NCBI RefSeq assembly: GCF_029023725.1
Contig: NZ_CP119075.1
Span: forward strand, 3,219,501 to 3,283,500
Length of the DNA: 64,000 bases
Direction of reading: 5' to 3'
Source of the DNA: Synoicihabitans lomoniglobus
GTDB lineage: Bacteria; Verrucomicrobiota; Verrucomicrobiia; Opitutales; Opitutaceae
The notes under the pieces are model-generated. The model saw only the letters and a list, made by a program, of their open reading frames with translations. It was not told the DNA's origin and did no database searches. The position numbers and the translations under genes were made by a program. Positions within the stretch are counted from its first letter, which is position 1; each line of letters opens with the position of its first letter. Shown in pieces: positions 32,101-46,895 of the stretch.

Positions 32101-33913
32101 GAACGGTCGGGTTCACCGGCGTGAGGGTGGCCTCGAGCAAAAGCGTTTCGTTGATGCCCAGACTCGCGCTGGTCGGCGCGACGCTGACGGCGGTGACGTC
32201 GATATTCGCCACCGTCACCGTGCAGGTCGCCTGAAAGCCGCCGTCATTCGCGGTCACGGTCACGATGGTCGTGCCCTCCGTGATCGCACGCACCGTGCCA
32301 TTACTGTCCACGGTGGCCACCGCGGGATTGCTGGAGCTCCACTGAACGGTGGGATTGCTTGCATCGGTGGGCGTGACGCTGGCGGTGAGCACATCCAGTC
32401 CGCCCTCCTCCATCGTCAGCGAGGACCGCGAAATCACGACCCCGGTCACGGCGATGCCCGCGTTGGCATCATAGGTGTAAGGCGGAGTCACCGCGCCCTT
32501 GTCGAATCCCGCCCGCACGTAGTTATTGTAGGCATACGCGGTGAGATCGAAGGGCATCTGATGCACGGGACGATTGGTCACCGCCTGCATAAAACCGGCC
32601 CAATTGTTCATGCCGAGCGATGCGGCGTAGCTGTCACCATTCCGGGTCGGATCGAGCCAGCCCGGATCGGCCGCAGGTTCGTCGTCACGGGTCCAGTTCC
32701 AGGCAATGTTGCCCGTGCCCAGCTCATTGGCCGTCATGGCGTTGAAAGGCCGCATGTTGACGCCGCGGGTGTCGCCGATGTTGGCCACGATATTGTCGTT
32801 CACCGTCGGCACGTTGTTGAGCTCGACGCGCCAAATTCCCCAGATGGCTCCGGTCTGCGGGTTGCTGGTATCGTCCGGGATCTGGGGGCGCCCGTCGGTC
32901 ACGACATTATCGGCCACCAGGGTTGGCCCAAAATAGAAGGCCGGCGGCGAGGGATACCCAATGTTCATCGAGATGGCGTTGCCGACGAAGGCGTTCATGG
33001 TCGCATAACCACCCGAGCGCAGTTGCAGGCCGTGGGCCGCCCCATAGGACAGGATGTTGCCGCGCACCACGATGTCGCCGTCGTTGTGCACCGACATGTA
33101 GATGTTGTGATTGAATTGGTTGGCCCCGGCTCCGGCGATCACCTCACTCCAGCCATTGTGGTGAAAAACGTTCTCCTCCAGATAGACATCGACCACGCCA
33201 CGCACAAACATGCCTTGCACCCGGGTGTCCGTCTCGGTGGTGCCGTGCGCCCACATGTTCATCACGATATTACGCCGGATATAGACGTTGTGCAGGAAGT
33301 TCGTGTCCCGCTGGCCTTCCGGCAGCGGTGCGCAGTAGCGCATGCGGCAATCCTCGACGAGGAGGTTGTAGGCATTATTGGCCCCCGCGATAAAGATCAG
33401 CGCATTTCCACACTCGGCATTTGTGAAGTCAGGCGACCCGGGATCGCTGATCGAGCGATACAGATCGAGGCCGACAAAGGCCTGGTGGTTGCGAGCCTGC
33501 CCGTTCCAATTCACAAAAGCACCGGTGAGCTTGATCACCGGACGCGGACCGGAATCCCCATAATAGGTCAAGACCATCGGCTCTTCGGCACTGCGACCAT
33601 TCTTCCAGCGACCGAGATTGGGTTGCGCGAAGGTATCGCCTCGTTTGAGCAGTATCCAATCGGGATACCCGTCGCGGATCAACGCATCGGCGGCATCGAT
33701 GGTGGCCAAGGCCGACGCCTCGGAAAGGCCGTCGTTGTCATCATCGCCTCCTGAGCTGCTGACATAGATTTGGCGGGAATCTCCGCTCGGGGTCAGGACC
33801 GTCCAACCGGCGGAATCGATGGTGCCGATGCCTCCGAAAAGGTGGATGGTGAGCGATAGGAAGATCGCGATCGCGATACCGACTTTGCAAAGCGGATTTA
33901 CAGTTTTGGTCAT
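26171..33913 (-). CDS. Giant secreted multi-domain protein: duplicated beta-helix and Big2 modules
   Basis: The 2580-residue product has a signal peptide (residues 1 to about 28). Residues about 32-655 and 656-1290 are two copies of one unit: a right-handed parallel beta-helix of about 440 residues (entry motif YVSSSGGDDDNDGLS) followed by two Big2 immunoglobulin-like domains (for example VQWSSSNPAVATVDSNG). Residues about 1297-2075 hold three 290-residue repeats, each starting GYDMDSFAGFSS or similar; the first two end in a Big2 domain. Then come an Ig-like domain, two MBG-type domains (FVYDGTSKSATV, SYDGTPREIGVD) and a C-terminal domain rich in LNGN repeats. No autotransporter barrel, LPXTG or PEP-CTERM anchor is visible. 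It may be a glycan-binding or glycan-cleaving surface protein. A palindromic operator candidate lies 181 bases upstream. Confidence 0.85.
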   Translation of the reverse strand: MTKTVNPLCKVGIAIAIFLSLTIHLFGGIGTIDSAGWTVLTPSGDSRQIYVSSSGGDDDNDGLSEASALATIDAADALIRDGYPDWILLKRGDTFAQPNLGRWKNGRSAEEPMVLTYYGDSGPRPVIKLTGAFVNWNGQARNHQAFVGLDLYRSISDPGSPDFTNAECGNALIFIAGANNAYNLLVEDCRMRYCAPLPEGQRDTNFLHNVYIRRNIVMNMWAHGTTETDTRVQGMFVRGVVDVYLEENVFHHNGWSEVIAGAGANQFNHNIYMSVHNDGDIVVRGNILSYGAAHGLQLRSGGYATMNAFVGNAISMNIGYPSPPAFYFGPTLVADNVVTDGRPQIPDDTSNPQTGAIWGIWRVELNNVPTVNDNIVANIGDTRGVNMRPFNAMTANELGTGNIAWNWTRDDEPAADPGWLDPTRNGDSYAASLGMNNWAGFMQAVTNRPVHQMPFDLTAYAYNNYVRAGFDKGAVTPPYTYDANAGIAVTGVVISRSSLTMEEGGLDVLTASVTPTDASNPTVQWSSSNPAVATVDSNGTVRAITEGTTIVTVTANDGGFQATCTVTVANIDVTAVSVAPTSASLGINETLLLEATLTPVNPTVPGVVWTSANPAVAAVDGNGVVTGVGAGSTVITVTTDDGGLTATCTVTVTSTVVPGIGSVDADGWTILTPSPDSRMVYVSSSEGDNNFDGLSPSTPKATIDAANALIRDGFPDWMLLKRGDTFPQPNLGRWKNGRGVNEPMVMTYYGETGARPVIKLTQELIYWNGEARNHLAFVGLDLYRSISDPDSPDFTNTSCDLGFSFNAGNNDAYNLLVEDCRLRYCWLIPQGQTSVYFLHNVHIRRNIVMNTWAHGTTEVDNRIQGMFVRGVVDVRLEENLFHHNGWSEVVAGAGANQYNHNIYMSVHNDGEIIVRGNILSYGAAHGLQLRSGGYATMNAFVGNAISMNVGYSSLPAFYDGPTYVADNVVTDGRPQIPDDSSSPQTGAIWGIWRVLLNTVPTIDDNIVANIRDTRGVNMRPFNAMTANELGTGNIAWNWTRDDEPSVDPGWLEPTRNADSFGASLGLTDWAGFIAAASNRPVHEMPFNLTAYAYDNYIRAGFNKGIVAAPYNYSGAPGSVAVTGVSLAPATLALEAGGTQALTATLSPLNATNQAVVWTSSAPGVATVSPSGLVTGVADGSATITVTTSDGGFTANTTVTVSSAPGGAVTGVSVSPTSLSFPVGQVQQLFATVSPANATDPTVTWSTSAPTVATVDANGFVTAVATGTATITATTNDGGFTASAVVAATAAPTGPAGVLFGFDLNNFPGFSSSPTATWDFAPFPLATTDVAGSFSHAHLATVVLSSGPGWVAAGTSSQAGFYRFPFYPGSPDPSDDQAASDAYVEFTINPAAGYSFTLAPTNTLQFNKRVYDSDGSAGLFVRSSLDNYATNLASLTGFGDGGVVSFDLPGFVGINQSVTFRIYVYDADGVIDGFGIRNNGNIVEDLDLVLNGTMAVATVPVSGVSLAPASVGLAAGQTQQLVATVAPANASDPSVVWSSSDPAIATVDTSGVVTAVMDGAATITVTTTDGGFTATTSVTVAPPVSGGVLVGYDMDSFAGFSSTPAETWDYAPHPLATTDVAGSATASNLTTVVLSAGPGWVAAGTNSQAGFYRFRAYPGSADPTSDTVASDAYFEFTLDPAAGYAFTLDATDTLQFRMRVYDNDGTAGFFVRSSVDNYASNLASLTGFGDSTTLSFDLPGFANVESAVTFRVYVYDADGDMGGFSLRNGGNVIGDYDFVINGSVNAATVPVSGVSVAPGSVALAAGQTQQLVATVAPANASDSSVVWSSSDPAIATVDTSGVVTAVTTGGATITVTTTDGGFTATTSVTVAPPAPGGVLVGYDMDSFAGFSSTPTETWDFAPHPLATTDVAGSATAANLATVVLSAGPGWVAAGTNAQAGFYRFRAYPGSADPINDTAASDAYVEFTLDPADGYGFTLDATDTLQFRMRVYDNDGTAGIFVRSSVDNYASNLASLTGFGDSTTLSFDLPGFANVESAVTFRVYVYDADGDMGGFSLRNGGNVIGDYDFVLNGAVNLAGGAGAGGGGETESSLAIVTESLGAGTVGETYTAQIETVGGAGDQAFDLASGALPVGLVLGSDGMISGQPMMAGIASFVLRVADLSGVQTREMTLNVSPGTAAVALSDLSFVYDGTSKSATVTTSPAGLSVGVVYAGNPTSPSHAGSYAVVATVMDANYVGSAAGTLTITAAPATVTLHGLGQSYDGTPREIGVDVVPDGLPVIVGYAGEIDAPRFPGSYEVVAVIDDPNYTGSASGVLKISTGALIRRGPTLNGDIDGSVQVTSAQSVTLNGGASISGDLLMPGTPEVLVQGNALYVGTQAGPGASDPTGHKITLNGNAVTRYIVTQIDPVDLPVVFAPPAPTGTANITLNTTGQNVPDWTVVRSLTLNGNAGVRAVPPGNYDRLTANGNSGFVLGIAGSTEPAVYGLQNLTLNGNSAIQLVGSVVLTLANGVSLNGNVGHIDQADWLTVNIHSGGLTLNGGVMLHGSVVAPNGTVTINGNSAIHGKVVADQLTINGNGYLQEP
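27711..30020 (-). repeat. Three tandem 870-bp in-frame repeats
   Basis: Equivalent positions recur every 870 bases (27711, 28581, 29451), equal to 290 residues. The first two copies by coordinate (27.7-28.3 and 28.6-29.15 kb) are almost identical in bases, while the third is diverged. This suggests a recent duplication within the giant gene. Confidence 0.85.
30560..33870 (-). repeat. Duplicated 1893-bp beta-helix/Big2 unit
   Basis: Equivalent sites lie 1893 bases apart (for example 30871 and 32764), equal to 631 residues. The beta-helix parts are clearly similar in bases but with scattered differences, so this duplication is older than the 870-bp one. Confidence 0.8.
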
Positions 33914-34093: not shown

Positions 34094-34109
34094 ATTAATC
34101 TTGATTAAT
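34094..34109. promoter_or_regulatory. Perfect palindrome, candidate LacI-family operator
   Basis: ATTAATC-TT-GATTAAT is a 16-base palindrome, 181 bases upstream of the giant gene, in an otherwise empty 276-base gap (33914-34189). It shares the ATCYTGAT core with four other sites in the island. The binding protein is inferred. Confidence 0.5.
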
Positions 34110-34189
34110 ATCCGCGCCCCGTGCCGACAAATTCGCCCCCCGCATGGACTCCGGTAACACGCGGTGTTCACCGCTGTCCTGAGCTCTGC

Positions 34190-35755
34190 TCAATGATCGC
34201 CTCCGACTGATTCTTTCGCGATCAAACCATCCGGAAAATCCGCCGCTTGCCGGCCGCCACGATCGCCGTCGCGGTAGTTGCGCAGGCGACGCGCCGGGGT
34301 TGGATGCAGCGGGATTTCCGTTCCACCCAGATCGTCCATCATCTTGAAGAGCCGGGTCTCCATTTCGTAGGCCAGTTTCGAATACTCCGGCTCGTAACGC
34401 AGGTTGTGCAGCTCTGCCGGATCGCTCTGCAAATCAAATAATTCATCCGCATCCCAAATCCCGTGATAGGTGATCAGCTTGTAGCGATCCCCCCGTAACG
34501 CGAAGGTCGTCGGCGTCTGCGGGAATGCCCGCTCCCAATAGTAGACGTAGAGAAATTGCTCGCGCCAATCAGTCGGCTGCCCTTCCAGCAAGGGCACGAC
34601 ACTGCGCCCGTCGAAATGCGGCGGCGCGTTCAAGCCCATCACCTCCATAATGGTCGGCGCAATGTCGATATTGGCGACCACCTCATCGATCACCGCGCCC
34701 CCCGGAAACATAGCCGGGCAACGCATGAGCAAGGGCACCCGGATCGAGGCCTCATAGGCCACCCGCTTGTCGATGAGTCCGTGTTCGCCAAACATGAAAC
34801 CATTGTCGCCCATATATATCACCAGGGTCTCGTCGGCGATCCCCATGCGCTCCAACTGCGCCATCACCCGACCGATGCTGTCATCCACCCCGCACAGCGT
34901 TTCACCATAGGCTTTGTAGAGGTCGTCCAGATCGGTCTCGGTATGATACGGAAAGTCGATGCCGTGCCAGCTGTTACGCTGATCGCGCAGCCAGCGAGGC
35001 TGGTTTTGGTTCCAGTCCCCGTGGGGCGATGCCAGCGCCGGGCGGGTCCACTGGCGGTCGGCAAATCGACCCAGATCCCGCGGGGCCGGGGTAAATCCGG
35101 CGTGCACCGCTTTGTGCGAGAGGTAGAGGAAAAATGGTTTTTCCTCCGGCTTTTGCTGCTCCAGCCAGTCCACCGCATAGTCGGTCAACTCATCGGTAAT
35201 GTAGCCCTTCTGTGGCACACGCTGGCCATCGACGTTCAGGGTGTAGTCCGGCGTCGGCGGATAATAGACCCCCTGCCCGGGAAAACTCACCCAATGATCG
35301 TAGCCCCGCTGCGGCTCGTCGCCATCCGAGCCCATGTGCCACTTGCCGAGGAAGGCGGTCGCGTAGCCAGCCTGCTGCAGATACTGGGCAAAAAACGGGA
35401 TGCTCGGATCCATCGGCGTGCCATTGTCGGCCACCCGATGGCGAAAGGTGTAGAGCCCCGTCATGATGGAAGCGCGACTCGGCGAGCACAGCGAAGTAGT
35501 CACCATGGCGTTGGGGAAGTAGGCCCCTTCGTGAGCGAGCCGATCCATATTGGGCGTTTCCGCCAGCGGATGGCCCAGAAAACTCATCGCGTCGTAACGA
35601 TGATCATCCGAGAGAATGAACACTACGTTGCGCGGTTTCGCCCTTTGTATCTGGTTTATAATCACTTCCTGGGGAATCGGAGCTGTAGTCGCCGAGCTGA
35701 TACTTCCCGCCCAGGCCGCCAGCAGGCCCATCGCCACAGTAAATTTGATTTTCAT
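34190..35755 (-). CDS. Type I sulfatase with CSPSR motif
   Basis: The ATG at 35755 is chosen because it begins a signal peptide (MKIKFTVAMGLLAAWAGS) and lies 19 bases after the previous stop; an upstream extension only reads into that gene. The 521-residue protein has VVFILSDDHRYDAMSFLG, the formylglycine motif C90-S-P-S-R94, FLGKWHMG, LYLSHKAVH and YMGDNGFMFGEHG. The C-terminus has the usual sulfatase subdomain (DLQSDPAELHNL). The overall sequence resembles N-acetylglucosamine-6-sulfatase or mucin/heparan sulfatase relatives, but the substrate cannot be told. Likely co-transcribed with the DUF4886-sulfatase fusion. Confidence 0.9.
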   Translation of the reverse strand: MKIKFTVAMGLLAAWAGSISSATTAPIPQEVIINQIQRAKPRNVVFILSDDHRYDAMSFLGHPLAETPNMDRLAHEGAYFPNAMVTTSLCSPSRASIMTGLYTFRHRVADNGTPMDPSIPFFAQYLQQAGYATAFLGKWHMGSDGDEPQRGYDHWVSFPGQGVYYPPTPDYTLNVDGQRVPQKGYITDELTDYAVDWLEQQKPEEKPFFLYLSHKAVHAGFTPAPRDLGRFADRQWTRPALASPHGDWNQNQPRWLRDQRNSWHGIDFPYHTETDLDDLYKAYGETLCGVDDSIGRVMAQLERMGIADETLVIYMGDNGFMFGEHGLIDKRVAYEASIRVPLLMRCPAMFPGGAVIDEVVANIDIAPTIMEVMGLNAPPHFDGRSVVPLLEGQPTDWREQFLYVYYWERAFPQTPTTFALRGDRYKLITYHGIWDADELFDLQSDPAELHNLRYEPEYSKLAYEMETRLFKMMDDLGGTEIPLHPTPARRLRNYRDGDRGGRQAADFPDGLIAKESVGGDH

Positions 35756-35774
35756 GAAAATAAATAAAGGCGTC

Positions 35775-38276
35775 TCAGGGGGCAGCTTGGGTTGACAAGC
35801 TCTCGGCCATGTCTTCGGCCAGATGGAAGTTCTGCGCGGGCAGGTTCGAATATTCCGGGCGTTGCCGCCACGTCTCCAGATAGGGCTGATAACGGGCATC
35901 GTCCGACCATGGATGTGACTCCGGCTCGGTCGGATCGACCCTACCTGCCGGGTAATCCTGGCCCGCGACACTGCGGTCGACCGACGCACTCCAGGCCTCA
36001 TAGTCCCGCCCCATCCGACCGAGCCGCTCCGGTTCGACCGCAGCCAGATTACGCGACTCCGTCGGATCATTCGTCAGGTCGTAGAGTTTGAAACCACCGG
36101 TTCCCTCCCCGGACACGACCAACTTGTAGTCGTTGTCGATCCAGGCGCCGCCGTCTTCGAAGCGAAACGGGATCGGCTTAACCCGCGGGACATCCCTGCC
36201 CGCGAATAGCGGGGCCAAATTCGCTCCGTCCACCGGGTCCAGCATTGCATCGGAAGGTAAACCGACGATCGCGGCCAACGTCGGGAAGATATCCATCGTG
36301 GAAGCCGGGTAGGATGATACCCGTGGCACAATCGCCGCCGGCCATTCGATTACCCCCGGCACGCGGATGCCTCCCTCCCAAAGCTCGCTCTTGTGCCCGC
36401 GCAATCCGCCCACCGTATCCGGAATCATGCCCGGCAATCCTCCGTTGTCGCTGCAATACCAGACCAGGGTATTCTCCGCGACGCCGAGGTCTCGCAGTCC
36501 TTTGCGCAGGTGCCCAAGAGCGCGGTCAAACGCCACCAGTTCCCCGTAGTGGTGCTGGCTCCTAAAATTCAGATCAGCGAGATCTCGCCGGTCCGCGTCG
36601 CTCGCCACCCATGGACCATGCGGCGAGCCGTCCCACACCACGGCGAAAAACGGTCGAGAGTCATGCACCGCACCTCGGATAAACTTCAACGCTTCATCCA
36701 CCACGATCGTCGATGAATCCCCTCGGAACGCCTCGACCGCCCCATTGCGCCCCATCAGCGGATTGAGGTCGAAGAAGTTGGTCACCGACAGCCACTGCTC
36801 GAAACCAAACTTCCCGGGATGGTGCGTATCATCGGCCAGAATCGGGGCTCCCGGGCCGCGCAGGCCATCGAGGTGCCACTTGCCGAAATGCGCGGTTGCG
36901 TAACCCTCCGCCTGCAACGCACTGGCCAGACTCTTCTCCTGCCGACGCAAGGCGTGACCGTGCGTGGGAACGCCCGTGCGGTCGTTGCTGCGGCCCGTCA
37001 GGACGGTGGCACGGGTCGGTGAACACACCGGTGCCCCCGCGTAAAACCGATCAAAGCGCAGCCCGTTCGCGGCCATCCGGTCCAATTCCGGCGTCCTCAG
37101 CACCGGGTGCTGATAATAACCGGTTTCGCCCCAGCCTTGGTCGTCGGTCATGACCAGCACGATATTGGGCCGCGTTCGCGCGGGCGCGACCTTCGTCGGC
37201 TGTTTCACCTGTTCCAGCACGGCCCGATGGGCCGCCCCGCGCAGCGAGTCGGCTTGCCCGGCCGTTAACTCCGGCGGACGCCAGGCATCGTCGCCAACGC
37301 GTTGCCCCACCAGAGTCTCGTAAAATACGCAGGCCCCCAGATATTGGCCCGCCACATTGGCGTGCTTCGCATCGAGGGCAAACTCACGCTGCCCGGTTTT
37401 CGTATCCGTCCGCCAATGCCAGCCTCCGATCAAACTCCCGGTTTGGTCAGGCCGCTGTTCAGGAGGCGGATGCGCGTAGTCGAAAGTGGGATCAGGGTGC
37501 ACGAAGTGCCACTCCGGCATGGCGCGGGCGATCTGGAACGCGTCGCCCACGGGCACCGTCAGCAAGCCGTAACGCGTCGCCAATGCCCCGTAGGCCGCCT
37601 TCAGGTCGGCGTGCATCGCGGTTTGGGAAAATGGCCCCGCACTGCGCAGCTGATCGCGACTGCGGGCCACCAAAACCGCCTCATAAGGCGAAAGTGAACT
37701 CGATGGCGAAGGCAGATATATCGGGTGATCGGACCGGTAGGCCCACGTCTCATGCACCACGATCCGCGCATCGGGGGCATGAGCCCGGACCACCGCGATG
37801 AGCTCGGCGGATGCGGGTTCATAAGTTTCCGGCTTAAAGCTGTCCCCGCTGAATTGTTGCAAGGTGACAAAGTCCCAGTGATCACGCTCCAACATCTCCA
37901 CCAGACTGTAGTGGCGACGGTTCGGATCATCCCGCTCCCAGTAGGGTTTGCCTTCCGGGTCTGATGGATCTCGCAACGCGATGCGCAAATACCGGGCGTG
38001 ACGCTCCAAGTCCGAACCGCCGATATTGGCCTTGGTCACCACGATCTCCACTCCCTGACTTTGCCCCAAGTCCGGCAGAAAGTGCGTCGCGTTCACCGCA
38101 AAACTGCTGCCGATCGTCAGAATTTTGATCGGGTCACGTCCTACACCATTCCCGTGAAGCGGCCCCCACCCGAATACCACCATCACCCAAACAAGGCACC
38201 CCCAACCCCATGGCCTGGTCCCCCGATGCCAACAACCGCCCGGCGAAACGAAATCTAATGGATGTGACATAGACAA
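35775..38276 (-). CDS. Fusion of a DUF4886/SGNH-like domain and a type I sulfatase
   Basis: The 833-residue protein has a hydrophobic export segment near residues 24-42. Residues about 48-330 form a DUF4886-like SGNH hydrolase domain: ILTIGSSFAVNATHFLPDL with the candidate nucleophile serine at about residue 57-58, VTLQQFSGDSFKPETYEPA, IVVHETWAY and DAKHANVAGQYLGACVF near its end. A short linker leads to a sulfatase domain (about 368-833) with NIVLVMTDDQGWGETGYYQ, the motif C418-S-P-T-R422, FGKWHLDG and WYCSDNGGLPG. Both domains look complete. The enzyme may remove an acyl group and a sulfate from the same glycan. DUF4886 activity is not well defined, so esterase function is inferred. Confidence 0.85.
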   Translation of the reverse strand: MSMSHPLDFVSPGGCWHRGTRPWGWGCLVWVMVVFGWGPLHGNGVGRDPIKILTIGSSFAVNATHFLPDLGQSQGVEIVVTKANIGGSDLERHARYLRIALRDPSDPEGKPYWERDDPNRRHYSLVEMLERDHWDFVTLQQFSGDSFKPETYEPASAELIAVVRAHAPDARIVVHETWAYRSDHPIYLPSPSSSLSPYEAVLVARSRDQLRSAGPFSQTAMHADLKAAYGALATRYGLLTVPVGDAFQIARAMPEWHFVHPDPTFDYAHPPPEQRPDQTGSLIGGWHWRTDTKTGQREFALDAKHANVAGQYLGACVFYETLVGQRVGDDAWRPPELTAGQADSLRGAAHRAVLEQVKQPTKVAPARTRPNIVLVMTDDQGWGETGYYQHPVLRTPELDRMAANGLRFDRFYAGAPVCSPTRATVLTGRSNDRTGVPTHGHALRRQEKSLASALQAEGYATAHFGKWHLDGLRGPGAPILADDTHHPGKFGFEQWLSVTNFFDLNPLMGRNGAVEAFRGDSSTIVVDEALKFIRGAVHDSRPFFAVVWDGSPHGPWVASDADRRDLADLNFRSQHHYGELVAFDRALGHLRKGLRDLGVAENTLVWYCSDNGGLPGMIPDTVGGLRGHKSELWEGGIRVPGVIEWPAAIVPRVSSYPASTMDIFPTLAAIVGLPSDAMLDPVDGANLAPLFAGRDVPRVKPIPFRFEDGGAWIDNDYKLVVSGEGTGGFKLYDLTNDPTESRNLAAVEPERLGRMGRDYEAWSASVDRSVAGQDYPAGRVDPTEPESHPWSDDARYQPYLETWRQRPEYSNLPAQNFHLAEDMAESLSTQAAP

Positions 38277-38290
38277 AACAGTCGTGGACA

Positions 38291-38302
38291 GATCAGGATT
38301 AA
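38291..38302 (-). promoter_or_regulatory. Candidate operator between sulfatase genes
   Basis: On the minus strand TTAATCCTGATC lies 15-26 bases upstream of the fusion gene, within a 36-base gap. It keeps one full half-site and the ATCCTGAT core seen elsewhere in the island; the other half-site is degenerate. Confidence 0.35.
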
Positions 38303-38312
38303 CTTGAGGGGA

Positions 38313-39773
38313 TCAGGAGATAACCGGATGAGACGCCGCCGCCGCGTGATCGCACAGGCGTCGCCGCAAGGTATGGAGCACGATGGAAAAATCTGAATCC
38401 GGTGCGAGATTCCTCAGCTCTTCGGGATCAGCCTGCAAATCGTAAAGCTCTTCGAAACCGTCCTCAAAACGAATCAGCTTCCAGTGATCGGTGCGAATAC
38501 TCGTGCAGTGATCCCCGGGTAAATTGTAGTCGGCCGTCCGTTTCAGCGGATGTTCGCCCAAGGTGCGCTGCCCTTCCGCCCAAGCCGCGCGGAACGCGGC
38601 AGCATCAGCATAGGGGTTGGCATAGCCGGGCGGGCACGCGACGCCAAACACCTCCGTTTTATGCGCCGTGATTTCCCCTCGAAGCAAAGGCACGAGTGAG
38701 CGCCCCTGCATCCAGTGATCGATCGGCAATCCGGCAAACTCGAGTAAAGTAGGCGCAAGATCAACATGCTCGGTGAGCACAGCGACCTCGCGACCAGAAG
38801 CCCTGGATTGGGGTAAACGCACCAGCAACGGCACATGGAGCAAAGCGTCCAGCAGAACCAAGTCCTTCTTACACATTCCGTATTGAAAGCCAAAATCACC
38901 GTGGTCCGATGTGAAAAGCACCACCGTATTGGCGGCATCCGGGCGAGCGTCCAAGGCCGCCAGAATATGGCCGACCTGCTCATCGACAAAACTCACCATC
39001 GACGCATAGACCGCGAGGTAGCGTTGCTTCTCGGCGCGGGTCGCACGATCCGCACCTTGGATGGATCGCTTAATCCGAAAACGGCGGTGTTTGCCGGCCA
39101 CCGGATCATCGCCAACGTCGGGAGGATGGATGGCGGACTCATCGTAGAGTGATTGAAACCGGCGCGGGGCCAGATGGGGCACGTGCGGATCGAAAAACGA
39201 GGCCACATGAAAGAAGGGCCGCTCCACCGTCGCCTCCTGCAGGAACCGCACCGACTCCGCACCAATCACCCCGGTCGTTGTCAGCTCGTCGGGCAAATCA
39301 TGAAAAATCCCGGAAGCGTGGCATCCGCGCGAACTCAACCAACCTTTTGATTGATCCACGAGCGCCTGCCACTCGCGGTAGCGGGCATGCGCTGGATCCG
39401 GGGCCCCACTGTGCCAATGATCGAAGGTGGGACGACCATCTGCCGGAAACAGGTGATCCTTGCCCGCGTAACCAAGTTGATAACCCTCCTCCTGCAGCCG
39501 GGTGAAAATCGAAAGGCGATCAGGGGCCACCTTGAGGTGATTTTCCCCCACCCCGGTTCGCTCGGGATATTGCCCCGTGAACATCACCGCTCGTGAAGGT
39601 CCGCAAACCGGACACTGACTGAAATGGGCCCGCAGGTCGACACTCTGACCAGCCAGCCGATCGAGATTGGGTGTTACCGCCAATCCCCCGTGAACCGAGA
39701 GTGCATCGAAACGCTGCTGGTCGGTCACGATGACCAATAGGTTGGGCGAACGAGAAGAGACTGAAGACATCAT
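38313..39773 (-). CDS. Type I sulfatase with CGPSR motif, no visible signal peptide
   Basis: The 486-residue protein starts almost directly with the sulfatase fold (NLLVIVTDQQRFDALSVHGG). The formylglycine motif is C57-G-P-S-R61 counted from the first of two start methionines. Other active-site blocks are YAGKDHLFP, FFHVASFFDPHVPH and LFTSDHGDFGFQYG. It resembles choline-sulfatase-like and related S1 sulfatases more than the two downstream enzymes. No hydrophobic signal sequence precedes the fold, so it may be cytoplasmic and act on imported sulfated sugars. It follows the TonB receptor gene on the same strand by 133 bases; that gap holds no evident motif. Confidence 0.87.
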   Translation of the reverse strand: MMSSVSSRSPNLLVIVTDQQRFDALSVHGGLAVTPNLDRLAGQSVDLRAHFSQCPVCGPSRAVMFTGQYPERTGVGENHLKVAPDRLSIFTRLQEEGYQLGYAGKDHLFPADGRPTFDHWHSGAPDPAHARYREWQALVDQSKGWLSSRGCHASGIFHDLPDELTTTGVIGAESVRFLQEATVERPFFHVASFFDPHVPHLAPRRFQSLYDESAIHPPDVGDDPVAGKHRRFRIKRSIQGADRATRAEKQRYLAVYASMVSFVDEQVGHILAALDARPDAANTVVLFTSDHGDFGFQYGMCKKDLVLLDALLHVPLLVRLPQSRASGREVAVLTEHVDLAPTLLEFAGLPIDHWMQGRSLVPLLRGEITAHKTEVFGVACPPGYANPYADAAAFRAAWAEGQRTLGEHPLKRTADYNLPGDHCTSIRTDHWKLIRFEDGFEELYDLQADPEELRNLAPDSDFSIVLHTLRRRLCDHAAAASHPVIS

Positions 39774-39906
39774 GACGTATAAATTAGTGAGCCGACCTGC
39801 CGCACGGCACCATGCGAGCGCTCAGGCCTTGCCCGCCTGTCCCCGCGCCTTGCCCGAAAGACGGGCCAGCACGGAAACAAACGGGACCAAGCAGATGAAG
39901 GACGAC

Positions 39907-42900
39907 TCAGAACTTGAAGGTATTTGACAACCTCCAGCTCCGGCCTTCCTGGATACGATACTGGGCGACCGTGCCATCAGGATTCGCGAAGACAGGCAGC
40001 AGCTCGTTTTCCCCGAAGGCGTTGAAGACGTTTAGCTGGATTGTCCAATCGATCTTCTGATTGATCTTTCGACCGTATCTCAACCACACATCAAATCGAG
40101 TGTTGGACCCACGTTTGAAAGGATTCGCCAAATCAGTCTCCACGAATCCGAAATCGTCAAACTGCTTGGGGTAGCCAATACTCGCACCACTTTCCCAACG
40201 CACCGCGCTACCGAATCCAAAGCCCTTCAGCCGACCTTCGTCGAAGTTGTAGTTGGCGAGCGCATTGGCACGCCATTCCGCAATCTCGCCATTGCTGTTT
40301 CCGTTTTGCTGTACGACCGTCGAATAATCGGCCCATACATTCTCCAACCACCACTCGGAGAGAGAGGTATTCAGATCATCCCGAATCCTAAGGCTTCCCG
40401 CAGCAGTAGGCGTCGTGCCGTCGAAGAGCGCATCTTGAATATAATTGTAGAGCTGGTTATAGACGGAGCCCGGGACGTTATCGATCACCGCTGTCGTTTT
40501 TGAAGCGTTGATCGCCAGACGCAGATGGCTGGTCGGGTTGGCTACAAACTCAATCTCGTAGCCTTCCGAATACGTATCGCCTGTTGTCACCACGCCCGAT
40601 GGAGTTGTGAATCGCACATCTTCATCGTTGCTCGGTCCCCAAGACCCAAACTCCTGCCACAGGTCGACAAACTTCGGGAAGGCCGCGTCGAAGTCGCTTT
40701 CAAACTTCAGCCACGCCGGAGCCGCGACGGTTTCGACATAGTTCAGGTCCCAATTGACTGTCGAGGGATCCGGCACGTTATCACGCAACACCCCAGTCCG
40801 CGCATCCGACGCCGATCCAGCGCCGCGACCGAAGAACTGCGCGAAGCGGAAATTGTTCGGGATGGAAGATCCGGAGACGTTGAGCACTGACGTTTCGTAT
40901 TTCTGTACCCTCAGGCTGTAACGGTTGTCCTTGGTCGATATCAAAACACCGTATTCCTCGGTCGAGCCCTGCGGAGCAGGAAGCACATTGCCGTTAGGAT
41001 CGAGGCGACCAGCCGTCGGATCAAAGTTCTCTCCCTTATTGTAGGATAGAGAAACATCGACCGGCAAACGGTTGAGAACCGGCACCCGATTCAGGTGCAA
41101 GACCAAGCTGTGATTACGCGAGGTGACGCTGACTTCCTCTCGGTTCCCGTTGGCGAGGTTGTAGACGTCCGGGCTCACATCGTCTCCTTGGTCGTCCCGC
41201 GAAGGCGCGTCGCGCCGGATCGATACGCTGTCGTCCTCACGGTAGCCAAAGGTTCCGACCACCGCGCCATTAAATAAGTAACCCTGCCATGACAGCACCC
41301 GGGATTCGACTTCGTTGTAGCGAAGCGAAGCGCTGTTGGTGGCCAAGTCGAAGTCCGCCTGGTTACCGCTCAAGGCTTGATGAACCGTAAAATTGCCCGT
41401 TTCCCAACCGGCGTAGTTGGCTGGATTGGCGGCTTCTTCCCAACGCTGCCCGGCGGGATTGACCCATGCGGTAGCCGGGTTAACCGAGGAGGCTGCAGTC
41501 CATTGCGTATTGAAATACTGGAGTGGAATCGTACCGCCGGTGGGTAGCGCATCGAGCGAAAGGTTAGTGAAATTGGCCCCACTCAAGCTCGTCCGTCCGC
41601 GCAGGTCGTCGCTAATGTAATAGCGGACGGTTACCCGGTTGTTGTTATTGAAGCGTCGCGTCGGGTCGATCCAACCCAGTTGATTGAGAAGGTCATCACC
41701 ATAAACCACGCGAGAGAACGAGCGGCGGTCCTCTAGGGTCGTGTCGCGTGAGACGACACCATTGAACACGTGACGGCCCAAGAACTTCTGTAGCCAAGTC
41801 TCCCCTCCGTTTTCCCGGAAATCGTGATCGAAGTAAGCCGATGCCCGCAAGCCTTCGAGCTCGTAGGTATTGAAACGGTTACCACCGGAGGCCGATTCCT
41901 GAACGTAAGCCCTACCCACATTAGGATTGGGCTGCCCGTCGATGGTGAATTCATTCACGTCCACGAATATTCGACTGTTGAAATTCATCAGCGTCTTCTG
42001 CCCGATCTCGTTGTTCTCCTTAAAATAGGAAACCTCGTAGCCCAGCTTGTTGTGGAGGAACGTATTGGCCACTGAGATACGGAATTGATCAAACTCGTTC
42101 CACTCCTGCTTGTTGGGACCGTCGAGCAGTTTGTTATAGAAATCGAATACCGACGGGTCAGTCATCGACACGGGCACAAAGTAGGCGGAAAATGGATGAC
42201 CATCCGCCTGGGCCTGATCGCCGACGGTGCCGGGAATTGCATCCAGGTAACCCACGCCAAAGATGCGACGAGCGGCGTTCGGGTTGCCCGTATAGATTGA
42301 GCCGTCGGCGAGCGTGGATCCGTAGGAACTGACACGACCCACCCGCCAAATTGGATCACCCGTGCCGGAGTAGGTCAGACGTCCGCCGTTGCCATCAAAC
42401 GATGTCACCACGCCATCGGGAAAGGAGCGACTGATATTGTCCAGGTAGCTCACAGTCTGTCCATCGATGAAAAGCTGACTGCCGGGAATCACGCCGTTCG
42501 AGTAGCCATTGAAGTTGGAACCGTCGGGCAACTGGATTGGCCGAATGACCTGCGGGGAGATGAAGGAGGAGAACTGGTCAACCGGCGGAGCATTACGCGG
42601 ACGGTTGCTGGTGGATTCTCCGGTCTCGAAGTCAGTGGAAATTTCAAAAGAGATCCCATTTTTGTTCAGGAACGCGGGCTTGTATTTTCCCGCGACAAAG
42701 ATCCGATCCTCGTCATCGAAGGCCGGGTCCTGCTGAAATTTCTTGCGATCCACAAGACCCGCTACTCGGAACGCCAATTCGTCTTTTCGCACGACCTGGT
42801 TGTAGTTGAAATTCGCCCGCACACTGCCCTCGCCGTCGACCGAGAGCTGCACCTCGCCGCGGGTGCGACGAAGTTCGGCGGCGTCGACCGTGGCGTTGAC

Positions 42901-43470
42901 CACGCCCCCGGGGCTACCCAGACCGAACAAAATGCTGTTGGGGCCGCGCAGCAAATCGATGCGACCCACGTTGTAACCATCCCACGCCACCGTAGTGCGA
43001 AAGTAGTTACGCGTGTTGTCCGCACTGACGAGACCGCGCACCCGGGTCGACGTAGACGGATTGAAGAACTGGGTCGTCTCGTCAACATTACCGAACGAGC
43101 TATTGCTCGCTCCCAGAAAGTTCCCACGCGATCCGGTCACCTCGAAGTTGGTCGCATAGGCCAGCGCCTCCTGTGCATCATTCGCGCCGATGTCACTGAG
43201 AAATTCCTTGGTTAGCACACTGACCGAGGTGCCAATATCTTTGAGTTCAGTGCGAAGGCGTGTGCCAGCCAGAGTGCTGGTGGCCATGTAGCCCTGCTCG
43301 ACTGTGCCGTCGACGTTGAACGGATTCAGTACAAAAACTTCTTCATCGATAACGGCGGATGGGGTTGCCTGAGGCGCAGCCTGGGCTGTCGCTCGTTGGG
43401 TGCAAAATACCGTCAGCCCGACGGCGATGAGAGAAAGCCCAAACTTTCTTGAGCAAAGGGATGGAAGCAT
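39907..43470 (-). CDS. TonB-dependent outer-membrane receptor
   Basis: ATG 43470 opens a signal sequence (KFGLSLIAVGLTVFC, ending TAQA) and is preferred to an upstream TTG at 43491. The 1187-residue protein starts with VLNPFNVDGTVEQGYMATST and AGTRLRTELKDIGTSVSVL, a TonB-box/plug region typical of Opitutaceae receptors. A plug domain to about residue 230 contains RGLVSADNTRNYF and RIDLLRGPNSILFGLGSPGG. A 22-stranded barrel follows and ends in an aromatic residue (SNTFKF). It should import an oligosaccharide or other ligand using proton-motive energy. Its place between a LacI regulator and sulfatases suggests a sulfated glycan. A candidate operator lies about 110 bases upstream. Confidence 0.93.
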   Translation of the reverse strand: MLPSLCSRKFGLSLIAVGLTVFCTQRATAQAAPQATPSAVIDEEVFVLNPFNVDGTVEQGYMATSTLAGTRLRTELKDIGTSVSVLTKEFLSDIGANDAQEALAYATNFEVTGSRGNFLGASNSSFGNVDETTQFFNPSTSTRVRGLVSADNTRNYFRTTVAWDGYNVGRIDLLRGPNSILFGLGSPGGVVNATVDAAELRRTRGEVQLSVDGEGSVRANFNYNQVVRKDELAFRVAGLVDRKKFQQDPAFDDEDRIFVAGKYKPAFLNKNGISFEISTDFETGESTSNRPRNAPPVDQFSSFISPQVIRPIQLPDGSNFNGYSNGVIPGSQLFIDGQTVSYLDNISRSFPDGVVTSFDGNGGRLTYSGTGDPIWRVGRVSSYGSTLADGSIYTGNPNAARRIFGVGYLDAIPGTVGDQAQADGHPFSAYFVPVSMTDPSVFDFYNKLLDGPNKQEWNEFDQFRISVANTFLHNKLGYEVSYFKENNEIGQKTLMNFNSRIFVDVNEFTIDGQPNPNVGRAYVQESASGGNRFNTYELEGLRASAYFDHDFRENGGETWLQKFLGRHVFNGVVSRDTTLEDRRSFSRVVYGDDLLNQLGWIDPTRRFNNNNRVTVRYYISDDLRGRTSLSGANFTNLSLDALPTGGTIPLQYFNTQWTAASSVNPATAWVNPAGQRWEEAANPANYAGWETGNFTVHQALSGNQADFDLATNSASLRYNEVESRVLSWQGYLFNGAVVGTFGYREDDSVSIRRDAPSRDDQGDDVSPDVYNLANGNREEVSVTSRNHSLVLHLNRVPVLNRLPVDVSLSYNKGENFDPTAGRLDPNGNVLPAPQGSTEEYGVLISTKDNRYSLRVQKYETSVLNVSGSSIPNNFRFAQFFGRGAGSASDARTGVLRDNVPDPSTVNWDLNYVETVAAPAWLKFESDFDAAFPKFVDLWQEFGSWGPSNDEDVRFTTPSGVVTTGDTYSEGYEIEFVANPTSHLRLAINASKTTAVIDNVPGSVYNQLYNYIQDALFDGTTPTAAGSLRIRDDLNTSLSEWWLENVWADYSTVVQQNGNSNGEIAEWRANALANYNFDEGRLKGFGFGSAVRWESGASIGYPKQFDDFGFVETDLANPFKRGSNTRFDVWLRYGRKINQKIDWTIQLNVFNAFGENELLPVFANPDGTVAQYRIQEGRSWRLSNTFKF

Positions 43471-43580
43471 AGGTATATGGGGTTGAGCCAAGGGTAGTAG
43501 CTAGCGGAAGACCAGACAGGCACCGCCTTCGACCATCACGCATAGGTGTCTAATCCCATCCCGACAATTTAACCAAAATA

Positions 43581-43592
43581 CATCCTGATTAA
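43581..43592 (+). promoter_or_regulatory. Candidate operator upstream of the TonB receptor
   Basis: CATCCTGATTAA sits between the LacI stop and the TonB start, 111 bases before the latter. It contains one perfect GATTAA half-site and the shared ATCCTGAT core. Confidence 0.45.
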
Positions 43593-43619
43593 CTTCAGGG
43601 GCTTACCAACTAAATGCGT

Positions 43620-44735
43620 TCACCCTTTAGTCCCAGCTTGGGCACGGGTTTTCACCGGTAGCGACGTGCCCTCATACCACTGGGGCGCGATCAATACACG
43701 TCGTTGAACCGCAGGCGGGCCCCATTCGTTTTCCAACATCGCGGCAATCAAAGAATCCACTCCTGTCGCACTTACTTCGGCCTCATGCCGCACGCAACCG
43801 CTCATATTTGGACACTCCTCAGGAATTGCCACGATACCTGCTACCGCAATGTCTTGAGGGATGCGCCAACCACCCTCAATCAGCCAATCGTAAACTCTCG
43901 GAACCATCGCCAGCAAAACTTCCGGTCGATAGCGACGCACCCACTCCAGGAATGCATCCTTATCCTGAGGTCCAGCAGTGAGTAAGGGAACGCGCTGACG
44001 TGTCGTCAGCGACGCCAATTGCATTGCCAGACAAGAACCGATTCGCTCCGCGTCATCCAAGGCTTCGGGGGAATGCCTGAACACCGCCCCACCGATACGA
44101 CGATACCCGCGTTCCCAAATCATACGCCAAACATAGCGCGTCACTTCAAACATATCCGACGCCACCGCATGAAAAGGCACCGGCGTGTAACCTGCACCTA
44201 GGCAAACCACGGTGAAATGCTCCACCGGCATCTCTTTGATCGCCGGACCATCAGACGGCGGTAGTTGCGGCATCAATACACCCCGAATACCGCGAGCCCG
44301 CAATACCCGCATGGCGCTTCCGATTTCGTTATACGGCGCGAGGTCGAACGCCAACAAACCATAACCCCGTTGTTCGGCTCGTTTTCGTGCGGCATCCAAG
44401 AATCGCCGCTGCAGCGGCATCGTTGCGTAACGGCTGTCGACGATGTAAGCCAACACCGACCCGCTGCCCGTTTCATGTCCTGCCCACCGTTGCCGCGCTA
44501 GGGTCGCCAGGGCCGGATCGGGCCGGTAACCCATCTGCTCCGCAAGTTCGGCCACGCGCTTACGAGTCGCTACCGCGATCCGGGGATCGCTCCGGAGAGC
44601 CAAGGAAACCGTCGACTTGTTGATGCCCAAACTTTGAGCAATGTCCTGATGAGTCACCCGACGTGATCCCGGACCATTTGTAACAACGGGGCCGGCGTCT
44701 GGGCCAAGAGGAGAACTCGACTTGCGTTTATTCAT
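43620..44735 (-). CDS. LacI-family transcriptional regulator
   Basis: The 371-residue protein has an N-terminal extension of about 25 residues, then the LacI helix-turn-helix (VTHQDIAQSLGINKSTVSLAL, residues 27-47) and hinge (RVAELAEQMGYRPDPALATL). The periplasmic-binding-like sensor domain fills the rest (ARGIRGVLMPQLP, FHAVASDMFEV, VAGIVAIPEECP). It lies between the TonB receptor gene and a divergent sulfatase, and is the only regulator in the island. A CATCCTGATG-type site overlaps its own start codon, consistent with autoregulation. The inducer is unknown. Confidence 0.9.
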   Translation of the reverse strand: MNKRKSSSPLGPDAGPVVTNGPGSRRVTHQDIAQSLGINKSTVSLALRSDPRIAVATRKRVAELAEQMGYRPDPALATLARQRWAGHETGSGSVLAYIVDSRYATMPLQRRFLDAARKRAEQRGYGLLAFDLAPYNEIGSAMRVLRARGIRGVLMPQLPPSDGPAIKEMPVEHFTVVCLGAGYTPVPFHAVASDMFEVTRYVWRMIWERGYRRIGGAVFRHSPEALDDAERIGSCLAMQLASLTTRQRVPLLTAGPQDKDAFLEWVRRYRPEVLLAMVPRVYDWLIEGGWRIPQDIAVAGIVAIPEECPNMSGCVRHEAEVSATGVDSLIAAMLENEWGPPAVQRRVLIAPQWYEGTSLPVKTRAQAGTKG

Positions 44736-44742
44736 CAGGATG
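44733..44742 (-). promoter_or_regulatory. Candidate LacI autoregulatory site
   Basis: On the minus strand CATCCTGATG overlaps the regulator's ATG. Bound protein would block its own translation or transcription start. Confidence 0.35.
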
Positions 44743-44996
44743 CAACGCGCCTAAGTTGATAGAGACAGCCGTTAACGGTCAACCTCGAGAGCGATTCATC
44801 CTGATGTAATTTACCCCACAACGCACATGAAATCCGTCACGTTCTCACCCTCTTTCCCAGAGCCGATCGTCACACGGCCTTAAGCCCAGTCGCGAGGCCA
44901 CAGAGCTGACCTTCTATCGTGTGATAAATTCACGACATAGCGGTTGACCCTAACATGACGAATTCGTGAACCAGTCCCGGCGCTGCAATCATCCCC
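44743..44996. promoter_or_regulatory. Divergent promoter region of the LacI and CAAAR-sulfatase genes
   Basis: The 254-base spacer holds CATCCTGATG at 44797-44806, a second copy of the site over the LacI start. It also holds a 10-bp perfect palindrome CCGTTAACGG at 44769-44778, flanked by GTTGA and TCAAC (44755-44759 and 44779-44783). Either may be an operator. The rest up to 44996 shows no gene; clear -35/-10 boxes were not identified. Confidence 0.5.
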
Positions 44997-46895
44997 ATGA
45001 AATTCCCCCTGTTACTTCGGCTTGTCGGCACATTGCTCAATGCTTCGCTCCTGGCCGCCACGGAGCCTGCGGCCAATGAGGATTCACCGCGCCCACAACC
45101 CAACATCCTCTGGATTACCAGCGAGGATCACGGCATTGAGATGGGGTGCTACGGCGATGCCTTCGCCACCACCCCACATGTCGATCAACTCGCGACCCAG
45201 GGACTTACTTACCGCTTCGCCTGGTCCAACGCCCCCGTCTGCGCCGCCGCCCGCACTACTTTGATCACGGGCGTTTATCCGACGTCCACGGGGAGCGAAC
45301 ACATGCGCAGCCGCGTGCCATTTCCCGCCGGGATCGAGATGTATCCCCAACTGCTACGTAAAGCTGGCTACTACTGCACCAATAACGCCAAGGAGGATTA
45401 CAATCTCAACCAGCCAGGCCGGGTCTGGGACATTTCATCCCCCCAGGCCCATTGGCGTGATCGACCCGCAAACCAGCCTTTTTTCGCCATCTTCAATTCC
45501 ACGGTCAGCCACGAACACGCGATCCGCACGCGTCCTCATAGCCTCGTGCACGATCCCGCTCAGGTGCGCGTCCCGGCCTACCATCCCGATACGCCGGAGG
45601 TCCGCCATGATTGGGCCCAGTATTACGACTCGGTCTCGGAGGCCGACACCATCGCCGGAGATCGCCTCGCTGAGCTCGCCGCGGCCGGGCTCACCGACGA
45701 CACCATCGTATTCTACTACGGGGACCATGGTTCCGGCATGCCTCGGTCCAAACGCTGGCCGGGTAACTCCGGACTGCGCGTGCCTCTTGTGGTCTACATT
45801 CCGCAAAAATTCCGCGACCTGCGCCCTCCGGAATACACCCCCGGCGGCATGTCGGATCGCTTGGTGAGCTTCGTCGATTTCGCGCCTACCCTGCTCAGCC
45901 TCGCCGGGGTTAAGCCGCCCGCCTGGATGCAAGGCCACGCCTTTCTCGGGCGGTATGACACCCCGCCCCAACCTTTCTTGTTCGGGTTCCGCGGTCGCAT
46001 GGACGAACGCTACGACCTGGTGCGCACAGTCACCGACGGCCGTTTCGTTTACCTGCGCAACTACCTGCCCTTCCGACCGGCTGGCCAACACATCGCCTAC
46101 CAGTTTCGCACCGACACCACCCGAATCTGGTGGCAGCTGCACGAGGCCCACGCACTCTCCCCGGAGCAGGATGCCTTTTGGCATCCCCGGGCACCCGAGG
46201 AGCTCTACGACCTGCAGACCGATCCCGACGAAGTCCACAACCTCGCCGACTCGCGCGAGTATCAGGAAATCAAAGCCCGCCTCCGCACCGCGCAGCAGGC
46301 GCAGGCCCGCGCCACCCTCGATGTAGGATTCCTGCCCGAAGGGGAACTGCACCACCGCGAACCCGGCGTATCGCCCTACGCCTTTGCCCGCGACCCCGGC
46401 GTTTATCCCTTCGAGCGCATCTTCGCCACCGCTGAGCTCGCTTCCCTGCTCGACCCCGCCGCGATCCCCGAACTAGTGCAAAGACTGAGCGACACCGATA
46501 ATACCGTGCGCTACTGGGCCGTGCTCGGCCTGCTGATGCGTAAGTCCGCCGGGGGACCAACCGGCCGCGACGCCCTGCGTGTCGCCCTCCATGATTCCTC
46601 GCCCGACGTGCGCATCGCGGCGGCCGAGACGCTCGCCCTCTACGGATCCCCTGCGGATCGGACGATGACACTCGATCTGCTGGCCCAGGCCGCCGATCCG
46701 ACGCAATCGGACGCCCTCATCCCGATGGCCGCCCTCAATGCCATCGACGATCTGGGGCCTATCGCGCTCCCCATTCGCCCCATCCTCGCCGCCTACGCCG
46801 CGCATTCCGAACAACTGCCTCCGGACCGTTACCTTGGTTATTTGCAGAACCTGCTCGCGCGCTACCAACCACCGGCGGCCAGCGATCTTCAATGA
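44997..46895 (+). CDS. Type I sulfatase with non-canonical CAAAR motif and HEAT-like tail
   Basis: The 632-residue protein has a signal peptide (residues 1 to about 21). The core reads NILWITSEDHGIEMGCYGD, then the modification motif C82-A-A-A-R86, in which Ala replaces the usual Pro. Later blocks are FFAIFNSTVSHEHAIR and FYYGDHGSGMPRSKRWPG. CxAxR is a permitted variant of the sulfatase signature, so FGE could still act on it. The last about 130 residues (RYWAVLGLLMRKSAGG, IAAAETLALYGS) form HEAT-like helical repeats. It is transcribed divergently from the LacI gene and followed by a truncated AKR. Substrate unknown. Confidence 0.87.
   Translation: MKFPLLLRLVGTLLNASLLAATEPAANEDSPRPQPNILWITSEDHGIEMGCYGDAFATTPHVDQLATQGLTYRFAWSNAPVCAAARTTLITGVYPTSTGSEHMRSRVPFPAGIEMYPQLLRKAGYYCTNNAKEDYNLNQPGRVWDISSPQAHWRDRPANQPFFAIFNSTVSHEHAIRTRPHSLVHDPAQVRVPAYHPDTPEVRHDWAQYYDSVSEADTIAGDRLAELAAAGLTDDTIVFYYGDHGSGMPRSKRWPGNSGLRVPLVVYIPQKFRDLRPPEYTPGGMSDRLVSFVDFAPTLLSLAGVKPPAWMQGHAFLGRYDTPPQPFLFGFRGRMDERYDLVRTVTDGRFVYLRNYLPFRPAGQHIAYQFRTDTTRIWWQLHEAHALSPEQDAFWHPRAPEELYDLQTDPDEVHNLADSREYQEIKARLRTAQQAQARATLDVGFLPEGELHHREPGVSPYAFARDPGVYPFERIFATAELASLLDPAAIPELVQRLSDTDNTVRYWAVLGLLMRKSAGGPTGRDALRVALHDSSPDVRIAAAETLALYGSPADRTMTLDLLAQAADPTQSDALIPMAALNAIDDLGPIALPIRPILAAYAAHSEQLPPDRYLGYLQNLLARYQPPAASDLQ

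Follow-up and report, generated by a model that had tools for sequence, protein, structure and literature searches.

A recurrent palindrome at LacI-family loci is the predicted operator of a sulfatase and TonB receptor island in Synoicihabitans lomoniglobus

In the comparative-genomic survey of LacI regulons (PMC4052901), 1251 regulators have even palindromes as their sites, and the centre of these is CG for 1173 regulators, another dinucleotide for 49 and degenerate for 29; its main text does not contain the term 'Verrucomicrobi'. In Xanthomonas campestris, according to the passages of PMC1790865 on the sux locus, this locus with its TonB-dependent receptor is repressed by SuxR, a regulator of LacI/GalR type. 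Here we describe a 64,000-nucleotide stretch of the genome of Synoicihabitans lomoniglobus (NZ_CP119075.1, positions 3,219,501 to 3,283,500; hereafter the window), in which five palindromic sites lie in an island of genes for sulfatases, a TonB receptor and a LacI-family regulator (P0001). No regulon work on this LacI subfamily was found among open-licence PMC papers. The five sites are probably the operators through which P0001, predicted to be a repressor, acts on the island.

All five sequences listed in the initial annotation were present at their positions (Table 1). The sites are even palindromes of 14-16 bp with a two-base centre, and their consensus is ATTCATC-NN-GATGAAT, in which the arm TTCATC recurs and the centre is degenerate. 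The 8-mer ATCYTGAT, by which they had been recognised, occurs 8 times on both strands of the window, compared with 2.2 expected by shuffling and a maximum of 6 in 100 shuffles. When coding and non-coding DNA were separated by a simple rule of length and codon GC, which is not an annotation, the window had 5 copies over its 5,111 non-coding bases, and 15 control stretches from the same genome had 1 over 20,347 (Fisher one-sided p = 0.0016), so that the 8-mer is not equally common in unrelated DNA. The remaining three copies in the window (39976, 54834 and 62112) lie inside predicted genes, which gives 3 in 58.9 kb of coding DNA, and the control stretches have 18 in 279.7 kb. Because the genome as a whole has many copies of the 8-mer alone (416 in 5.93 Mb), it is the intergenic position that carries signal. 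The bare 8-mer was rejected as the motif on the same count, since the extended arms matter. An apparent strand polarity of its genomic copies, all plus beyond about 271 kb, was likewise dismissed, as the control stretches have 11 copies on the plus and 8 on the minus strand. The motif was chosen after looking at the window; the p value alone is thus not decisive, and the deciding tests therefore rest on other loci.

A matrix built from the five window sites alone, with its cut-off at the value exceeded by one control position, gave 8 matches in 5 of 7 related stretches comprising 6.9 kb of non-coding DNA. Among 500 column-permuted palindromic matrices the mean was 0.51 matches and the maximum 7, in at most 4 stretches, and none reached either observed count. 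In a palindrome scan that used no prior motif, CATC-N2-GATG ranked first. It was present in 5 of 7 loci, where the stretch L109 was joined to the group of its neighbour L063, and in 6 of 7 when the hand-added stretches L062 9601-9902 and L065 10555-10890 were included; of 200 dinucleotide shuffles, 27 reached 4 loci and none reached 5. At a score of at least 14, the control stretches had 8 matrix matches, 7 of them inside predicted genes, and no match was present at the other LacI-type genes of the same genome, for which 18 loci of about 4 kb were scored. The idea that a common 8-mer spotted by eye recurs by chance, which could draw on its genome-wide frequency, its choice after inspection and these matches in control genes, is scarcely credible, as it is contradicted by the related loci, the permuted matrices, the shuffles and the whole-genome tallies.

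In those tallies, the strict form TCATCNNGATGA was found at 45 places in three whole genomes, 3 of which were judged non-coding, and each of these 3 lies in an island of the LacI subfamily. The S. lomoniglobus genome accounted for 15 places, with 2 outside frames of more than 150 amino acids (aa), one beside the lacI paralogue L010 and the other about 4 kb from the paralogue L012. The cut-off was 120 aa in the two further genomes and in the TTMAWCNNGATKAA tally below. Genome G206 had 14 places, and the one judged non-coding is a site between lacI and a TonB receptor gene. An open frame of 168 aa (L176) does cover this site, but the frame was discounted because it lies in the lacI-TonB receptor gap and lacks the codon-GC signature. 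In G001, from the same genus, all 16 places were in frames with a coding-like signature, and no subfamily member was found at E <= 1e-60 with 7 of 31 first-look candidates scored. The exact sequence TTMAWCNNGATKAA occurs at 9 distinct places in the S. lomoniglobus genome, 4 of them in the islands of the window and the paralogues (978,433; 3,200,053; 3,209,033; 3,253,595) and 3 in coding-like frames. Site 1 of the window (L092) is one of the nine and lies in no frame above 120 aa. Within one mismatch of TTMAWCNNGATKAA there were 193 genome matches, and the best 100 of the 193 were looked at for a regulon outside the islands.

The site recurs at the loci of close relatives. Close paralogues of P0001 in its own genome share 56%, 51% (with two internal stops) and 48% identity with it, and a search of 252 genomes of the family, 9 of which had a match including the own genome, gave good relatives in G206 (53%), G242 (51%) and G246 (46%). 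The intact paralogue L010, which lies leftward of the window lacI at a distance of about 53 kb, adjoins a TonB receptor gene, with sulfatase and DUF4886 genes near. Its island, which comprises the neighbouring stretches L063 and L109, has TTTCATCCAGATGAAA at L063:9536 between lacI and the receptor gene, and to the left of L010 ATTCAGCAGGATGAGT lies between a divergent sulfatase-HEAT/DUF4886 pair. In G206, ACTCATCAGGATGAAT is found between the orthologous lacI and a TonB receptor gene, so that the order lacI-site-TonB receptor is common to the window, L010 and G206, and the placement of site 3 matches that in the latter two. In G242, GTTCATCCTGATGAGT precedes the orthologous lacI. The island of the 48% paralogue L012 (stretch L064) encodes an alpha-L-rhamnosidase, sulfatases and an esterase, and its non-coding sites number four, spread over three gaps: ATTCAACCGGATGAAT, TTTCATCTTGATGATC, TTTCAACATGATGATT and ATTCAACTGGATGATT. 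Its half-site is mostly shifted, to TTCAAC in 3 of the 4 non-coding matches scoring at least 12. The motif is therefore not absent from orthologous loci, being present in the L010 and L012 islands and beside the lacI genes of G206 and G242.

Two further loci of the own genome were observed in passing. L011 (3204665-3205696) is the paralogue interrupted by two stops, and intact L010 is about 3.4 kb away; another TonB receptor gene adjoins L011, and we read the pair as a decaying duplicate of a lacI-TonB receptor unit. At 1019683 (L108:16687), TTTCAACTGGATGAAT stands before a Gfo/Idh/MocA operon and behind a gene for an AraC/XylR-type regulator, and it is possible that this site is a distant member of the L012 regulon.

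Several results weigh against the assignment of these sites as operators of the subfamily. Site 2 is the weakest of the five, with an imperfect left arm and a leave-one-out score of 13.1 versus 17.1-20.1 for the other four. The G246 copy, GCTCATCCGGATGAGT, falls within a YdjC frame, at its 5' end. Neither 1.5-kb flank of the pseudogene L011 contains ATCNNGAT, the only copy there being inside its coding part. G041, whose regulator is 39% identical overall with a nearly identical helix-turn-helix (HTH), had no match of at least 12 in its 20 kb; its lacI-divergent region contains only TTCAACGGGATGCC, seen by eye and not convincing. Of the four 36-38% relatives, G193, G189 and G120 had no non-coding match of at least 12, and the one match of 20.2 in G193 is inside a predicted gene; the fourth, G127, had two such non-coding matches, scoring 15.6 (GTGAATCGTGATTAAA) and 12.6, and a further match of 17.3 inside its lacI frame. 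The exact TTMAWCNNGATKAA places at 1,019,683 and 2,310,330 look non-coding and are outside the islands; they could be distant members or chance. No sigma-70-like promoter was found adjoining any site, and such promoters are as many as in shuffles.

Outside the window's family, searches that scored just a few first-look candidates per genome gave no match to the LacI subfamily in an order sample of 372 genomes (E <= 1e-60) or a class sample of 384 genomes (E <= 1e-55). A scan of named genomes gave 6 loci with one full-length relative (33%, from a metagenome-assembled genome of Opitutia), at which there was no convincing site, the best non-coding score being 11.5.

If the sites are real operators, their reader could be another regulator, or they could be shared with L010 and L012, so that the window LacI is not their sole or main reader. 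The genome encodes several close paralogues with similar recognition helices, and the site sets of the paralogues overlap; because intact L010 lies so close, cross-talk between paralogues is possible. In the initial annotation, one glycan-responsive regulon under the LacI of the island had been considered likely. The recurrence of the site at paralogue and orthologue loci largely bears this out, whereas the presence of L010 leaves the regulator's sole claim to the sites less secure. In contrast, strict TCATCNNGATGA outside coding frames is confined to subfamily islands in all three genomes tallied, and the shifted half-site of L012 is what would be expected if each paralogue read its own set. 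We therefore consider a different or shared reader unlikely, though it is the strongest of the alternatives.

It was also considered that some of the sites, chiefly that at 43582, are not operators and belong to a hairpin in the transcript, or to a terminator, that follows the upstream gene. A terminator-like hairpin, CCTGAAGTTAATCAGG, was indeed called at 43599-43584, directly behind lacI. However, the number of terminator-like structures equals that of shuffles (13 found vs 11.9 expected), and the hairpin covers part of one operator arm only, because it pairs CCTGA with TCAGG. Moreover, sites in divergent gaps (44797, L064:15392/15437 and L109:16205) follow no gene end. An origin as terminators is thus very improbable, and we retain P0001 as the probable reader of the five sites.

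The two-base centre was compared over 17 hand-picked sites, a set that includes the uncertain sites L062, L108, L109:17387 and L063:556 and leaves out, of 18 aligned rows, that of L065, which was misregistered by a few bases. The centres were AG/CT in 7, AA/TT in 3, CA/TG in 3, CG in 2, AT in 1 and GA in 1; when the five window sites were excluded, they were AG/CT in 3, CA/TG in 3, AA/TT in 2, CG in 2, AT in 1 and GA in 1. The YT centre had been described as unlike the CG centre of many LacI operators. A fixed CpG is indeed absent, but YT is local to the window, and AG/CT accounts for no more than those 7 of the 17. The usual LacI hinge is PNxxAxxL with a small alanine, which is not essential for membership of the family. 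P0001 has PDPALATL, with leucine at the alanine position and the later leucine kept, and the aligned structures 4o5a, 3e3m and 3bil of the PDB have alanine. The hinge alanine is missing in 19 of the 20 LacI-type sequences of the own genome (L009-L028), and only L028 (PNAAARNLA) has it. Without a fixed central CpG, the hinge would contribute little base specificity. We tentatively propose, as one possibility and not the likeliest, that LacI proteins of the window's family, which in the own genome often have the hinge P-[ND]-P-x-[LVI], read operators with symmetric arms and no fixed CpG in this manner. That the non-CpG centre is tied to the altered hinge is our hypothesis, and the combination of the two is possibly new.

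A sister LacI group, consisting of L018 and 29 relatives (L140-L168), has a conserved block, CTAACWWTAGACTTG, upstream of lacI. Within the 350 bases before lacI, 16 of the 30 loci are within one mismatch of CTAANNTTAG (CTAA-N2-TTAG), compared with 2 in 20.3 kb of non-coding control DNA, and 13 of these 16 blocks are 54-84 bases upstream of the gene. There are 8 perfect copies, with centres CA or CT; L018 itself is without the block. In the L018 group the block extends asymmetrically (...TAGACTTG) and for this reason could be a promoter element. As a lead only, we note CTAA-N2-TTAG as an operator or promoter of the sister group, which may be a second case of a non-CpG centre with an altered hinge. 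De novo palindromes in the 350 bases upstream of L013 and its 29 relatives gave no clear motif, the best being TGCG-N0-CGCA in 5 of 30.

Table 1. Predicted operator-like sites and genes of the island, in window coordinates, and matches of the five-site matrix in related stretches.
Feature	Position	Strand	Sequence or domains	Placement or remarks
Operator-like site 1	34094-34109		ATTAATCTTGATTAAT = ATTAATC-TT-GATTAAT, perfect 7+7 arms	upstream of giant Big_2/MBG protein
Operator-like site 2	named 38291-38302; 16-base span 38288..38303		GATCAGGATTAA	36-base gap preceding DUF4886-sulfatase
Operator-like site 3	named 43581-43592; span 43578..43593		CATCCTGATTAA	between lacI stop and TonB receptor start
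Operator-like site 4	named 44733-44742; span 44730..44745		CATCAGGATG	over annotated lacI start codon
Operator-like site 5	named 44797-44806; span 44794..44809		CATCCTGATG	divergent region lacI/sulfatase
LacI-family regulator P0001	43620..44735	-	371 aa; Pfam LacI HTH, Peripla_BP_3	
TonB-dependent receptor	39907..43491	-	Pfam Plug 1.9e-08	likely ATG 43470
Sulfatase	38313..39773	-	Pfam scan	
DUF4886-sulfatase fusion	35775..38276	-		likely ATG 38270
Sulfatase (frame)	34190..36070	-		start probably nearer 35775, because the frame overlaps the preceding gene
Giant protein	26171..33913	-	2580 aa; Ig (immunoglobulin)-like repeats Big_2 and MBG_3	
Divergent sulfatase	44997..46895	+	HEAT repeats	
Matrix matches	L063:9536, L063:556, L064:15437, L064:15392, L064:17700, L060:6478, L061:3579, L109:16205			

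Within the window, the centres of the sites are about 188 (site 1), 25 (site 2) and 116 bases (site 3) 5' of the likely ATG of the gene that follows, and that of site 5 is about 195 bases 5' of the divergent sulfatase gene. The sites had been said to precede their genes, and they mostly do lie in gaps before them, except that site 4 contains the CAT at 44733-44735 which, read on the minus strand, is the annotated lacI start. That start is uncertain, as the matches of the closest relatives begin at residues 15-24. Sites 4 and 5 are 64 bases apart, centre to centre, which could, speculatively, support cooperative binding or a loop. Sites 2 and 3 have in common a 20-base block, ATCNNGATTAACTTSAGGGG (38292-38311 and 43582-43601; 17 of 20 identical), that exceeds the palindrome, and the distances to the following genes differ between the two. 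A weak candidate for a sixth site, AGACATCATGACGTAT (39765-39780, score 13.7), lies over the start of the sulfatase gene at 38313-39773.

A TonB-linked carbohydrate-utilisation (CUT-type) locus combines a TonB receptor, degrading enzymes and a dedicated regulator, and its definition also names an inner-membrane sugar transporter. The window island has the first three, with its Plug domain, four sulfatases and LacI; no inner-membrane sugar transporter was found in the 17 window proteins scanned, a subset of the window's genes. P0001 carries an N-terminal LacI-type HTH (PF00356; 6.1e-10, 39.2 bits vs a cut-off of 27) and a periplasmic-binding-protein-like sensor domain (PF13377; 1.3e-06, 29 bits vs a cut-off of 26.5). 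By analogy with the LacI family, from which we infer binding, repression and sugar induction, a LacI dimer would sit on each site when no inducer is present, repressing its own gene as well as those for the TonB receptor, the sulfatases and the giant protein. The inducer would be a sugar freed from the target sulfated glycan, which would bind the sensor domain; sugar-bound LacI would then leave the operators, and the island would be expressed.

The analysis supplies a testable predicted operator for this LacI subfamily, and unites the TonB receptor, the sulfatases, the DUF4886 fusion and the giant Ig-repeat protein in one predicted response to a sulfated glycan. If non-CpG centres do go with altered hinges, these loci would offer a natural test of how the hinge helices of the LacI family read DNA.

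In comparison with the regulons covered in the main text of PMC4052901, the island is alike in its even palindrome, in a regulator beside its targets, in the autoregulation predicted here and in its carbohydrate genes, and unlike them in that a CG centre is found in just 2 of 17 sites. The sux locus differs in its substrate, which is sucrose, and the passages of PMC1790865 on it name no sulfatases; repression and induction were measured there and are predicted for the window island. The two systems nevertheless resemble each other in arrangement, with a repressor of LacI type, predicted as such in the window, encoded beside a TonB receptor and sugar-processing enzymes.

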